Below, piece after piece: positions 28,023-32,863 of a stretch of 32,863 nucleotides of DNA. The position numbers and the translations under genes were made by a program. Source of the DNA: Arenimonas sp. GDDSR-1 (GTDB lineage Bacteria > Pseudomonadota > Gammaproteobacteria > Xanthomonadales > Xanthomonadaceae). The stretch's first letter is position 1. Every line of letters starts with the position of its first letter. Location of the stretch: assembly GCF_025980345.1 (NCBI RefSeq), contig NZ_JAPDUI010000012.1:1-32863 (forward strand), in the 5' to 3' direction. The notes beneath the pieces are model-generated. The model worked only from the letters and a program-made list of their open reading frames with translations. It was not told the origin of the DNA and did no database searches.

Positions 28023-28472
28023 TCAAAGCGCGTCGCGGATGGTTGCTTCGACCGTTTCCAGGTTCGGAATCGATACCCCATCGCCATCCAGATAGGCGGA
28101 GTAATAGTACTCACTGGCGTGTTCGGGATCATCGATGAGATGGTCGGAAGCGATGTTGACAAGACGCGGAAAGCCCGAGGTCAGAATGGCGAAGTACGGC
28201 AGTTTGGTCTCGCCGGAAAGGCCTTTGAGAACGGCGATTTTCGCACCCGCCACGGACTCCCGGGGGGTCCATCCCGCCATCGCCGAAAACGAAACCAGAG
28301 GCAATCGGTAGCCCTTCCAGCGGATGACACCGAGAAACCAGTCCGGCTTGCCTTCAACGGCTTCCGGTGCGGCATAGGTGATGATTTCGGACACGGTGGT
28401 GTTCGGCAGCATCAATTTGCCGCCGGGCAGCGCCATCAATACCGCACGCATCTGTTCGACTTGGGTTTCCAT
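28023..28472 (-). CDS. chpC: CheW-like protein of the twitching chemosensory system (ChpC-like)
   Basis: 149 aa, a single CheW domain: MLPNTTVSEIITYAAPE, FLGVIRWKGYRLPLVSF, PYFAILTSGFPRLVNI. CheW proteins bridge chemoreceptors and CheA-type kinases. The name follows gene order chpA-chpB-chpC in Pseudomonas; similarity alone would only say CheW. It lies 12 bases after the chpB-like gene and ends the cluster. The start has only a weak ribosome site. Confidence 0.88.
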   Translation of the reverse strand: METQVEQMRAVLMALPGGKLMLPNTTVSEIITYAAPEAVEGKPDWFLGVIRWKGYRLPLVSFSAMAGWTPRESVAGAKIAVLKGLSGETKLPYFAILTSGFPRLVNIASDHLIDDPEHASEYYYSAYLDGDGVSIPNLETVEATIRDAL

Positions 28473-28484
28473 AGATTATTCCGT

Positions 28485-30212
28485 TTAAGTGAACCACTTC
28501 GCCATAAGCTCTTCCGTCAGCAGCGGCGCACCGGCATTGGCCAGTTCACGCGCTACGCCGGCGTCGTAACATTCTTCCGGATCCTGCACAAACAGGGTTT
28601 TGCAGGCACCACTGAACGCCATCAATGCCGAAGCCAATGCCGGATCGGCACCGCTCAACACCAGAATTTTTGCCGATTTCGACTGGAGGGTGATGAACGG
28701 CCTCAGACCAGCACGGGCCTGGCATTGGTATCCCAGTGCAGTCACGGCGATGCCGCAGTCGGGCGGGAGCAGATAAACGGTTCCCGACAGCAGATGTTCA
28801 TCGCTTTCGGCAACCCGAAGATCGGCATCGGTGACTTTCTGCAGCTGTGCGCGCAGACGCTCCAATTGCGCGGCGCCGATTTGGAGTGACAGGACCATAA
28901 CACCGGCGAAGGTGCGTGGGACTTTCTGCAACAGCGTACGTACCGCGCCCGGTCCGCCGACACCGGATACCACCAGAAACAGACGGTCGTGCGCGGCGTC
29001 TTCAACCGGCAATGGAACATGAACGGGCGCTGCCGCAAAAGCCGGCATGGCTGGCGCCGGCGCCGGTTCGCCCAGCGTCGCTGCCGGCGTGCCCGTTGAA
29101 GGGGCGGAGACATCATCCACCAGAGAGAACATCGACAGGTCGAACTCGCGGGGCGGTGCTGCAGCCGTGACGGCAGGCACCGCCATCGCGGCATCGGCGC
29201 TCAGAGACAGTGCGGAAAAATCGGGCGCGGCGACCGGCTCCGGCACGGCCTGAACGCTTGCGGCCGGAATCTCGGGAACCGCGAAATCGGGCATCAAGGT
29301 GGGATCGATGTCGTAGTTGAACATTGATTTTTCTTCATCGCTCAACGGCAACAGGGCCTCATCTGCGGCACCTTCCGAAGACACCGGCGGATGCGACAGG
29401 CTGTCTTCCATCTGTTGCAGGGCGCCTGCCAATTCCGTCGAGTCCAGATCGAAACTGAAACCGTCGCCGTCATGCCATTCGGTCGAACCGGAACGGCCGA
29501 TGTCGAGCTTCTCGACGGTCGGCAGCGCATCGGTCTGCGGATTCTGTCCTGATTCAAGCAGTGCACGCTCTTCTTCGGTCAAAGGCAGCAGCTGTTCGGA
29601 ATCAACACGCACTTCCGGGCCGTCATGGCCATGGGCCAACTCGGAGTCGACTTTCGACAGCGCCAAGGCCAGCGCATCCGGATCGATGGCGAGATCGTCG
29701 TAATGTCCGGTATCCTGCCAATGCGCGGATTCGTCGGTTTCTGCCGGCGCGGCAAAACCGGCCGCGACCGGGATATCCTCATGGCTGCCACCGATCGGCC
29801 GGTAATCCGGCAATCCGTCATCCGGCGCCTGCATCGCCTCCTTGGCATCGGCGTCCATCGGCAGCGGCGGCAGAACATCACGGTCAAGCAGTTTTGCCGC
29901 CATATGGCGGGCCCAGCGGTTGAGGTCCCATCCGCTCAGCCCGCTGGTGGTTTCGGCATCATCGAAAAGAACCGTCATCGAGGGTTGGCTGAGGAATTCG
30001 CTGTAAGGTTCAAGCTCCAGCTCGGTGGCCGGTTCGAGACTGATCACGATTTTGTTCGGAGCCAGCTGCGTCAGCGCATCCGGCGACGTCTGTGACGGCT
30101 TGCCGACCCAGACCGGATGCACGCCAAGATCGGTCAGGGCGCCGACCAGTTGTTCGCGGGCCTGACCCTCCCGGCCGAGCACCACGACTCGTTGTGCGCC
30201 ATTGGCCATCAT
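28485..30212 (-). CDS. ChpB-like protein: degenerate receiver plus degenerate CheB methylesterase domain
   Basis: 575 aa. The N-terminal 110 residues look like a response-regulator fold (RVVVLGREGQAREQLVGALTDLGV) without the acidic pair or phospho-acceptor Asp. Residues about 112-405 are an acidic, Pro/Ala-rich linker with a duplicated module (176-222 and 256-301), each with LLPL[TS]xEE[RK]. The last 165 residues align by eye with the CheB methylesterase domain (LFLVVSGVGGPGAVRTLLQKVP, SGTVYLLPPD). However, the Ser of GASAGG appears as Gly, the His of VQHM is replaced and the TGMGSDG Asp motif is lost. CheB normally demethylates chemoreceptors; this protein probably cannot. It starts three bases after chpA and precedes chpC, matching the chpA-chpB-chpC order. 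Confidence 0.75.
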   Translation of the reverse strand: MMANGAQRVVVLGREGQAREQLVGALTDLGVHPVWVGKPSQTSPDALTQLAPNKIVISLEPATELELEPYSEFLSQPSMTVLFDDAETTSGLSGWDLNRWARHMAAKLLDRDVLPPLPMDADAKEAMQAPDDGLPDYRPIGGSHEDIPVAAGFAAPAETDESAHWQDTGHYDDLAIDPDALALALSKVDSELAHGHDGPEVRVDSEQLLPLTEEERALLESGQNPQTDALPTVEKLDIGRSGSTEWHDGDGFSFDLDSTELAGALQQMEDSLSHPPVSSEGAADEALLPLSDEEKSMFNYDIDPTLMPDFAVPEIPAASVQAVPEPVAAPDFSALSLSADAAMAVPAVTAAAPPREFDLSMFSLVDDVSAPSTGTPAATLGEPAPAPAMPAFAAAPVHVPLPVEDAAHDRLFLVVSGVGGPGAVRTLLQKVPRTFAGVMVLSLQIGAAQLERLRAQLQKVTDADLRVAESDEHLLSGTVYLLPPDCGIAVTALGYQCQARAGLRPFITLQSKSAKILVLSGADPALASALMAFSGACKTLFVQDPEECYDAGVARELANAGAPLLTEELMAKWFT

Positions 30213-30215
30213 GGT

Positions 30216-32863
30216 TTATTTCTTGAAGATCTCGTTGACCTGCCGCATCAGTTCGAATTCCTGATAGGGCTTACCGAGATAGCGCTCGACGCCGAGGTCG
30301 AATGCCCGCTGGCGGTGCTTCTCGCCGGTCCGGGAGGTGATCATCATGATCGGCACATGCTGGAGACGGGCATCGGATTTCATGTTCTGCGCGACTTCAT
30401 AGCCGTCCATGCGGGGCATTTCGATGTCGAGCAGCACCAGATCGGGGACCTGTTCGGCCATTTTCTCGATGGCCTCGAGACCATCCCGTGCGACCACGAC
30501 TTCGAAATTGTTGCGCTCCAGGATGCGCGAGGTGACCTTGCGCATGGTGATCGAGTCGTCGACCACCATGACCAGCGGCATCGAGCGTGACGTATCCTCA
30601 ACCGCTTCCGGCGCATGCGGAATCTGGCGCTCGGCATTGTGACGAACCAGCGGGGCAAGATCCAGAATGACCACCACGCCGCCGTCGGGCATGATGCTGG
30701 CGCCGTAAACACCGGGTACCGAGGTGACCTGAGGGCCGACCGGTTTGACCACGATTTCCTGGCTGCCGAGCACCTGATCGACGCAGATCGCGATGCGGTC
30801 CTGCCCGGACTTGGACAGCAGCATCGGCATCTGCATGCTTCCAGCCGCTTTTGCGGTCGGAAGATCGAGCAATGTTCCGAGATCGTAGATTTTGTGACGG
30901 TTGCCGGCGTAGTTGAACTCCGGGGATTCCAGCCGCAGCTTTTCATCCAGTTCTTCACGGCCGATCCGGCCGACGCCGTCGACCGATGCAATCGGAATGG
31001 CGAACTGGCTTTCGCCGATTTTGACGAATACGGCTTTGGTCACCGCCAGGTTCAGCGGCAGTCGGATGATGAATTCGGTACCGCGGCCAAGCGTGCTTTG
31101 AATGCCCAGACTGCCGTTCAGATTGCGGATTTCGCTGCTGACCACATCCATGCCGATACCCCGGCCGGCCAGTCGGGTCACCGTGTCGACGGTCGAGAAG
31201 CCGGTCTGGGTAATCAGGGCGAGAACCTGGGCTTCGCTGAGTTCCTCATCGGCACCGATGAGACCGCGTTGCAGCGCTTTATTCCGGATCTGGGCGACAT
31301 CAAGACCATGACCGTCATCGCGGACGGAAAGCACGACTTCCGTACCTTCCTGGGCGACATTGATGACCACGTTGCCGGTTTGCGGCTTGCCGGCGCTACG
31401 GCGCTGCTCCGGCGCCTCGATGCCATGGGCGACGGCATTGCGCAGCAGGTGTTCCAGCGGTGCGGTCATGCGATCGAGAACAGAACGGTCCATTTCACCC
31501 TGCGCGCCGTCGATCCGCAGATCGACCTGCTTGCCGCTGTCTTCGGCGGCCTGGCGCATGACGCGGCGCAGGCGGGGCAGCAGCGTTTCGAAAGGCACCA
31601 TGCGCGTACGCATGAGACCTTCCTGCAGCTCCGAACTGACGCGCGACTGCTGAAGCAGCAGGGTTTCATGGTGACGGGTCAGGTCATCGAGCGTGGCCTG
31701 CAGGTTGATCAAGTCATTCGAGGATTCCGCGAGCGAACGCGACAGCTGCTGCTGCGTGGTGAACCGGTCGAGTTCGAGCGGATCGAAATCCTTGTTGCCT
31801 TCATCGGCTTCCCGGATGTTGCGGGCGGCGATCTGGGCTTCGGTTTCGATATCCAGTCGGCGGAGCTGTTCGCGCAGACGCGATGTGGTCTGGTCGAGTT
31901 CGACCAGATTGGTCTTGAACTGGCCCAGCTGTTGTTCGAGGCGGGCGCGGTAAATAGCGACTTCACCGGCGAAATTGACCAGCTGATCGAGCAGGTCGGC
32001 ACGGATGCGGACCACATCCTGCGGCGTGCGCAGACCCTCATCGGTATCGAGATCCTGCAGATCGATCGGGCCGGACAGCGGCTTGGCTACTTTTGCCGCC
32101 GTGGTTTGTGCAGACGGTGCGGATTCCGGAGCGGCGCTGACACCGCCGGCGTCCAGCAGTTGAATCAAGGCGTTCGGCGACTCTGGCGCAGCGCGTTCTT
32201 CAACCTGATCGGCCATCCGGTGCAGGGCATCCAGGGCTTTCTCAATGACCCCGAGTTGCGCGGCATCGGGAACCACGCCTTGCTCGGCGCCGGCCTGGAT
32301 GAAGCTTTCCAGACTGTGGCTGAGTTCGCCGATGCTGAACAGACCGGCCATGCGGGCGCCGCCCTTGAGGGTATGCAGATTGCGTTGCAAGCCGAGCAAC
32401 GGCTCGACGCTTTCCGAGGACTGCTTCAACTGGACCAGCAGATTATCGCTCTGATCGAGCAGATCCTTGGCCTCTTCGGTGAAGATGTCCAGAAGTTCTT
32501 CATCCAGATCACGGGTATCCAGTCGATCCATTGCGGTACCCTGCCCTTCATCAACCGACGTTTGGACGGATGCTTCGTTCATCAATGGTGCCGGCGGCAA
32601 TGCTTCAGATTCCGGCTTGGCAAGGTCTGCAGCGACTTTCATGACCGCAGGAGCGGCAGCCTCGATATCGGATGCTTCATCCGGCTGGTAGTTCGGATCG
32701 GTCAAGCGCTCAAGCTCTTCCAGGCTCATGCCATCATAATCATTGGCTTCTGCCTTCCCGGCAGCGGCTTGTTCGGCGGCGGCTTGTTCGGCGGCGGCTT
32801 GTTCGGCGGCGGCTTGTTCGGCGGCGGCTTGTTCGGCGGCGGCTTGTTCGGCGGCGGCTTGTT
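30216..32863 (-). CDS. chpA: ChpA-like hybrid chemosensory histidine kinase, C-terminal part (5' end outside window)
   Basis: 881 codons are visible and the frame stays open to the right edge, so the ATG at 32729 is internal and the true start lies beyond. ChpA-type CheA hybrids control type IV pilus twitching. In order: the (EQAAA)n repeat, an Hpt domain with the phospho-His in NLHTLKGGARMAG (codon 32373-32375), a dimerisation segment with RIRADLLDQLVNFAGE, the HATPase domain (HLLRNAVAHGIE, RDDGHGLD, LAGRGIGMDVV), a CheW-like domain, and a receiver whose Asp in LVLLDIEMPRMDG is codon 30426-30428. More Hpt domains are expected upstream, as in other ChpA proteins. The chpB-like gene follows after three bases. 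Confidence 0.94.
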   Translation of the reverse strand, partial: QAAAEQAAAEQAAAEQAAAEQAAAEQAAAEQAAAGKAEANDYDGMSLEELERLTDPNYQPDEASDIEAAAPAVMKVAADLAKPESEALPPAPLMNEASVQTSVDEGQGTAMDRLDTRDLDEELLDIFTEEAKDLLDQSDNLLVQLKQSSESVEPLLGLQRNLHTLKGGARMAGLFSIGELSHSLESFIQAGAEQGVVPDAAQLGVIEKALDALHRMADQVEERAAPESPNALIQLLDAGGVSAAPESAPSAQTTAAKVAKPLSGPIDLQDLDTDEGLRTPQDVVRIRADLLDQLVNFAGEVAIYRARLEQQLGQFKTNLVELDQTTSRLREQLRRLDIETEAQIAARNIREADEGNKDFDPLELDRFTTQQQLSRSLAESSNDLINLQATLDDLTRHHETLLLQQSRVSSELQEGLMRTRMVPFETLLPRLRRVMRQAAEDSGKQVDLRIDGAQGEMDRSVLDRMTAPLEHLLRNAVAHGIEAPEQRRSAGKPQTGNVVINVAQEGTEVVLSVRDDGHGLDVAQIRNKALQRGLIGADEELSEAQVLALITQTGFSTVDTVTRLAGRGIGMDVVSSEIRNLNGSLGIQSTLGRGTEFIIRLPLNLAVTKAVFVKIGESQFAIPIASVDGVGRIGREELDEKLRLESPEFNYAGNRHKIYDLGTLLDLPTAKAAGSMQMPMLLSKSGQDRIAICVDQVLGSQEIVVKPVGPQVTSVPGVYGASIMPDGGVVVILDLAPLVRHNAERQIPHAPEAVEDTSRSMPLVMVVDDSITMRKVTSRILERNNFEVVVARDGLEAIEKMAEQVPDLVLLDIEMPRMDGYEVAQNMKSDARLQHVPIMMITSRTGEKHRQRAFDLGVERYLGKPYQEFELMRQVNEIFKK
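32767..32863. repeat. Perfect 15-bp tandem repeat inside chpA
   Basis: Six complete identical copies of GCTTGTTCGGCGGCG start at 32767, 32782, 32797, 32812, 32827 and 32842. A seventh begins at 32857 and is cut by the window edge. In the chpA frame each copy encodes Glu-Gln-Ala-Ala-Ala, so the array gives an in-frame helical (EQAAA)n linker. The copies show no base differences. Confidence 0.97.

Follow-up and report, generated by a model that had tools for sequence, protein, structure and literature searches.

In the Lysobacteraceae, the linker between the last two phosphotransfer (Hpt) domains of the ChpA kinase is of very different length from species to species and is often built from a repeat with a five-residue period. 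The case analysed here is a tandem array of 15-bp units at the end of the window, that is, the whole stretch of DNA studied, which is an entire contig (C76, 32863 bp) of the 89-contig, 2.04 Mb genome of Arenimonas sp. GDDSR-1 (Lysobacteraceae). This array is read in frame within chpA/pilL, and it appears reasonably likely that it encodes part of a long, alpha-helical, rod-like spacer in the ChpA/PilL kinase, which would separate the N-terminal phosphotransfer block from the last Hpt domain and the kinase core.

The array itself is well defined. Indeed, Tandem Repeats Finder reported a period-15 array at 32759-32863 (7.0 copies, 98% matches), and the exact two-unit pattern occurs 4 times, compared with a mean of 0.00 in dinucleotide shuffles. 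The 15-bp tandem array announced for the window end by the original prediction, an earlier note made on this DNA, is thus borne out, as is its in-frame reading as (EQAAA)n, which was recovered by translation of the minus strand. The same note counted at least six perfect copies without a silent change; five copies are indeed complete and identical, but the sixth displays only 14 of its 15 bases and the seventh differs silently, so that the absence of silent changes holds for the visible perfect block and not for this edge unit or for the GCT-bearing units of a second contig, C86, described below. All array Gln codons in the window are CAA, a codon chosen for only 15% of the 170 Gln residues counted outside the array (remainder of chpA/pilL and four neighbouring genes), and six identical codon strings would arise under independent codon choice with a P of about 1e-7. 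Codon bias cannot therefore account for the identity of the units and was ruled out as its cause.

The gene that carries the array is identified, on the basis of its predicted domains and neighbours, as the CheA-type kinase ChpA/PilL of the type IV pilus chemosensory (Pil-Chp) cluster. Indeed (i) it encodes a core of H-kinase_dim, HATPase_c and CheW-like domains, (ii) multiple Hpt domains precede this core, with one encoded in the window, three further Hpt stretches encoded on C86 and four in the unsplit orthologue of Arenimonas maotaiensis, (iii) a receiver domain is present at the C-terminus, and (iv) the neighbouring genes are of the Pil-Chp type, with a PF13675 PilJ-domain receptor, two CheW proteins, a receiver and a CheB_methylest protein. 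A. maotaiensis (G007, locus L021) has both kinase halves and these neighbours on a single contig, with their order conserved. ChpA is the kinase of the Pil-Chp system in the portions available of PMC12632253 and PMC10782961. No P2 (CheY-binding) family was found in the window half (E up to 0.001), nor in the C86 half or the A. maotaiensis orthologue (E up to 0.01). The array is located in the linker between the penultimate and the last Hpt domains, in agreement with the earlier placement of the repeat beside an Hpt domain of a surface-motility chemosensory kinase.

Orthologues were sought across the genus and the family, with one genome per species in the comparison sets. At the threshold used, the gene is present in 25 of 27 genus genomes and in 118 of 120 genomes of the family sample. 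Among matching genomes other than the window's own, the gene was fetched from all 24 in the genus and from 60 of 113 others in the family, i.e. 84 in all, and the 67 that have both Hpt domains in one frame constitute the measured set; the 17 left out comprise 13 genes at a contig end (including that of G036), three with apparent frame breaks (G003, G011, G041) and that of G034, for which the fetched stretch began at the first base of the contig. In the 67 complete genes, the linker from the penultimate to the last Hpt domain spans 153-604 amino acids (aa), plus one of 886 aa (mean 380, standard deviation (SD) 122), and the comparison of linker length across orthologues recommended by the original prediction therefore returned widely different lengths between species (153-886 aa). 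For the first 47 genes the values are 158-886 aa (mean 377, SD 126), and in these genes the part from the start of the core to the end of the protein measures 535-624 aa (SD 12).

A called tandem repeat is present in the linker of 62 of the 67 complete genes. Repeats cover at least 30% of the linker in 43 of them, 36 of which have 15 bp or a multiple of it as their best period; among the periods called in the 47-gene set, 170 of 171 are multiples of three. The units vary by lineage and include EQAAA, EAAAA, EAERL, RLAEEA and others. At the protein level, residue identity within the 67 linkers peaks at lags 5, 10, 15 and 20, and the identity at lag 5 is 0.302 versus 0.157 in shuffled sequences, with a clear excess in 39 of the 67 genes.

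The composition of the repeats points to a helix. Proline and glycine together represent 0.8% of 8111 repeat codons versus 11.8% of 7339 other linker codons (43 genes), and would reach 26% and 17% if the repeat DNA were read in the other two frames. In the AlphaFold model of the window half, residues 2-40 form a helix, with block values of the predicted local distance difference test (pLDDT) of 77-87 (residues 1-30) and 61 (residues 31-40). In the model of the A. maotaiensis protein, a single helix extends from residue 135 to residue 253 (block pLDDT 71-94 for residues 141-240, 52 and 63 at the ends), and a low-confidence stretch lies between this helix and the last Hpt domain. That the spacer is one continuous helix is thus a feature of the models only. 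Since a five-residue period places equivalent residues 140 degrees apart, the stripe of a classical coiled coil is not expected, a point that was reasoned and not computed.

Comparisons between species suggest that the repeat content is renewed rapidly. The nearest species compared (G025, locus L020; 92% protein identity) has at least 12 EQAAA units, which likewise run to the edge of a contig, and its array has a codon map unlike that of the window array. In the C-terminal halves, the window gene and its G025 orthologue differ at 149 of 433 fourfold sites (corrected distance 0.46); by a rough hand estimate, the six visible units should have accumulated about 4 fourfold changes (18 x 0.23) since the split from G025, and none is observed (P about 0.02). 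Given these 149 fourfold differences and none among the six units, the perfect block is probably younger than that split. Other close pairs of species were also aligned. G102 and G141 are the closest species with dense arrays: their cores are 99.8% identical, and 7% of their fourfold sites differ. Their linkers measure 604 and 599 aa, three 15-bp indels separate them, and 197 of 1782 aligned linker bases (11%) are mismatched versus 2.2% in the core. Across four dense pairs the linker mismatch is 11, 24, 30 and 22% versus 2.2, 4.7, 4.7 and 6.6% in the core, and across three array-poor pairs it is 2.4, 3.0 and 10% versus 2.0, 4.2 and 5.4%. These aligned sequences support the view that, between close species, the content of dense arrays changes several times as fast as the kinase core. 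The very recent expansion or ongoing turnover proposed earlier thus receives support at the species level, from the likely age of the block relative to the G025 split and from the fast change in content, and within the limits of between-species data.

The number of copies seen in the window is set by an assembly break and not by biology: the window end is the contig end, and the window consequently gives no copy number for the array. A 24-base probe from the array, with up to 3 mismatches allowed, matched the genome at 10 places, divided equally between the end of C76 and the start of C86; a reversed-pattern control was uninformative, because reversal of the array unit yields only a rotation of it. 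C86 opens inside the array, and its minus strand encodes 976 residues that end in (EQAAA)n. Its units are mostly GAACAAGCCGCTGCC, one carrying a second GCT, with irregular units at the 5' edge; GCT is found at the second, or at the first and second, Ala codons, and silent changes do therefore exist within the array. As chpA/pilL is a single-copy gene in this Arenimonas genome, and as both halves and the flanking genes are collinear on one A. maotaiensis contig, the two halves are considered to be one gene. No exact overlap was found between C76 and C86, and none within 6% mismatch, so that joining them by overlap was ruled out; a single assembler k-mer value behind the edge tracts was also dropped, the C76 tract measuring 100 bp and the C86 edge tract 63 bp. 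The array, whose completion beyond the window edge had been called for, is hence found to continue on C86, but the two ends do not meet.

It is the array itself that best accounts for the contig end. Indeed, among the 25 matching genomes of the genus, 11 (window included) have a gene that runs off its contig upstream of the last Hpt domain, where about 1.8 such breaks would be expected if breaks were uniform over 1.25 kb (from rounded genome sizes and contig numbers), and 8 of these 11 contig edges are a called tandem repeat, the one in G013 being weak. Two further genus genes (G018, G019) break within the kinase core. Separately, an apparent frame break was noted in or beside the repeat linker of three chpA genes, namely L062 (G011), L069 (G003) and L097 (G041), and the break in G011 holds a run of unknown residues; these three cases may stem from errors in the reads or the assembly, or the kinases may truly be split.

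In the mechanism proposed for the spacer, units would be gained, lost and copied over each other in whole 15-bp steps, by slippage or unequal recombination, and such copying would keep local stretches identical. Selection would mainly preserve a stiff, soluble, helix-forming rod, its length being loosely held. Each unit would add about 0.75 nm to the rod (0.15 nm per residue), and the rod would set the distance of the N-terminal Hpt domains from the catalytic core and the C-terminal receiver. In a bolder version, which is speculative and on balance unlikely, the pentad-built single helix of Lysobacteraceae ChpA would be an evolvable molecular ruler. Its units, each worth about 0.75 nm and 140 degrees of rotation, would be rewritten, added or removed singly, the ruler would determine how far the N-terminal Hpt domains reach and how they are oriented relative to the kinase core, and copy number would be a heritable dial on the phosphate flow to the pilus response regulators.

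Several observations weigh against the spacer reading. Repeats cover less than 30% of the linker in 24 of the 67 genes, and dense arrays are therefore not essential to ChpA. Nor is the repeat feature general: in 20 genes, each from a different family of the class outside the Lysobacteraceae (out of 27 non-family genomes with a match), the lag-5 signal was absent from the 200 aa before the last Hpt domain (0.077 versus 0.083 shuffled, 0 of 20 genes), and the outgroup linker, where both Hpt domains were found (14 of 20), measures 15-287 aa and is often short. Two other linkers vary as much relative to their means, the coefficient of variation in the 47 genes being 0.33 for the array linker, 0.46 for the part before the penultimate Hpt domain and 0.31 for the part from the last Hpt domain to the core; the array linker is consequently distinguished by its absolute length and repeat content and not by relative variability. 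Among pairs with a fourfold difference under 0.2, the median difference in linker length is 19 aa in 17 dense pairs versus 29.5 aa in 6 array-poor pairs, and in one of the latter, G099 (L140)/G120 (L141), with cores 99.1% identical, a 56-aa difference in linker length arises from gaps of 96, 81 and 9 bases, without dense repeats. The idea that dense arrays speed up the change in linker length was accordingly not borne out in this sample, and the faster change in content and the unremarkable change in length pull in opposite directions for the spacer. In addition, repeats are easily misaligned, which raises the linker mismatch counts; the AlphaFold alignments were shallow (12 and 2 rows), and AlphaFold tends to render Ala/Glu-rich low complexity as helix; the genes counted are related by descent and are not independent trials; and an effect of spacer length on phosphotransfer is a hypothesis.

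These points leave a modest chance to neutral slippage in an unconstrained linker, in which any soluble sequence would be tolerated, 15-bp units would spread through the ready slippage of such DNA, and neither length nor helix would matter. The wide variation in linker length between species, the 24 genes without dense arrays and the differing array residues (EQAAA, EAAAA, EAERL, RLAEEA) are all in keeping with it. However, the repeats contain almost no helix breakers, which abound elsewhere in these linkers and when the repeat DNA is read in either other frame, the five-residue period recurs across genera despite different units, and in the closest dense pairs the content changes fast and the net length little. 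A contingency locus, at which change in copy number within a species tunes or switches pilus signalling between strains, as the original prediction proposed for phosphotransfer tuning, seems quite improbable. The perfect local copies lie in frame in a signalling gene, the codon maps differ between the two nearest species, and repeat content outpaces the core several-fold between close species, as such a locus might lead one to expect, but the closest dense pair, at 7% fourfold difference, has only three 15-bp indels with a net change of five residues, and a 15-bp unit in a coding region keeps the frame and cannot switch the gene off.

The two remaining explanations are very unlikely. The first, that the end repeats were made or multiplied by the assembler, draws on the fact that the arrays on C76, on C86 and in G025 end exactly at contig ends, and the contig end is indeed tied to the array, as the original prediction feared when it named an assembly artefact as its possible refutation. 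Yet the two contigs carry different silent variants, G025 has at least 12 units, and comparable arrays lie inside long contigs of A. maotaiensis and other species. The other, that the repeat acts as nucleic acid, through an RNA hairpin or a pause at rare codons, and not as protein, is suggested by the use of the minority codon CAA throughout the window array. However, the amino-acid period persists in other species although their units differ, and the repeat RNA is less stable than its shuffles (z = +1.98; equal or better folding in 197 of the 200), so that RNA structure was rejected as the function of the array. A helical spacer thus remains the preferred reading of the array.

The coordinates of the array, of the kinase domains and of the adjacent genes are listed in Table 1.

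Table 1. Features of the window around the chpA/pilL array (window coordinates unless C86 is indicated).
Feature	Position	Strand	Remarks
Perfect period-15 tract, sense unit GAACAAGCCGCCGCC (EQAAA)	32764..32863 (100 bp)	minus	reaches contig end
Five complete identical 15-bp units	32775..32849	minus	unit map
Sixth identical unit	32850..32863	minus	14/15 bases present, rest cut off by contig end
Seventh (edge) unit	32760..32774	minus	single silent change, GCT for GCC
Short segment YDGMSLEELERLTDP	32694..32738	minus	just after array
chpA/pilL, C-terminal 881 codons	30216..32863	minus	N-terminal 976 codons on C86:1-2928 (minus), L018
Last (C-terminal) Hpt domain	32220..32498	minus	PF01627, residues 122-214 of window half
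H-kinase_dim (P3-type dimerisation) domain	31851..32018	minus	domain search
HATPase_c catalytic domain	31050..31460	minus	domain search
CheW-like domain	30639..31034	minus	domain search
C-terminal receiver domain (Response_reg)	30237..30572	minus	domain search
ChpB-like protein with CheB methylesterase domain	28485..30212	minus	
ChpC-like CheW protein	28023..28472	minus	

The short segment just after the array resembles YGMSLEELEALTSP and is modelled at low confidence by AlphaFold. Similar segments are found in 11 of the 67 complete linkers, namely in 9 of 10 complete Arenimonas genes and in 2 of 57 others; a general docking motif was for this reason rejected, and the YGMSLEELEALTSP-like segment could be a genus-specific docking motif. 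Arrays at other places of chpA open frames in other families were noted in passing: a 15-bp array of 5.7 copies further upstream in the outgroup genome G189, a few others of the outgroup having short arrays elsewhere, a 12-bp EPEP array between the last Hpt domain and the core in G185 (L160), 90-bp units in G146 (L155), and a 15-bp array near the start of the frame in G188 (L149).

Furthermore, the ChpB-like protein is 575 aa long with a CheB domain only at residues 414-562, and it shares 42% identity with its A. maotaiensis orthologue versus 68-93% for the other cluster proteins compared. A hybrid histidine kinase of 1175 aa (L018:7920-11447) is encoded upstream of the pil-chp genes on C86, and its predicted domains include a two-component-regulator propeller, Y_Y_Y, HisKA, HATPase_c and a receiver.

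The reason for the many phosphotransfer domains of ChpA is called poorly understood in the available part of PMC12632253. One bacterial family is found here to have spacers of very different length between the last two Hpt domains, often with a five-residue helical period, and offers a natural length series for asking whether reach or stiffness between Hpt domains matters. In draft genomes of the genus the gene is often broken at the array, and a 'missing' Hpt domain or a split kinase can thus arise from the assembly.

Rigid helical linkers of the (EAAAK)n type and Ala/Glu-rich helices such as TolA domain II serve as spacers, and the ChpA spacer shares with them five-residue or Ala-rich helical repeats. 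Unlike these, the ChpA array is natural, lies inside a multi-Hpt histidine kinase and turns over in the DNA. ChpA itself is already known, and a repeat-built spacer in ChpA appears to be new, no description of one having been found in the titles and abstract openings of the open-licence literature searched. The ChpA of Pseudomonas aeruginosa, a CheA of the type IV pilus class with multiple Hpt/Xpt domains, is alike in its several N-terminal Hpt domains, kinase core, CheW-like domain and C-terminal receiver, and in its PilJ, PilI, ChpB and ChpC-like neighbours, as far as the available text of PMC12632253 and PMC10782961 extends. It is in the dense five-residue arrays before the last Hpt domain that many Lysobacteraceae genes stand apart, the lag-5 signal in the 200 aa before this domain being seen in 0 of the 20 other-family genes (P. 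aeruginosa not among these). The tandem repeats of strain-typing variable-number tandem repeat (VNTR) loci, in the parts available of PMC4045669 and PMC3838355, are likewise DNA units able to change by whole copies, whereas the ChpA array was compared between species only. Periscope proteins are alike in that coding tandem repeats vary the length of a rod and set the distance of a functional domain, according to the available part of PMC8201768; they differ in being surface proteins built from arrays of folded domains, whereas ChpA is a kinase, expected to be cytosolic, with repeats of five residues.

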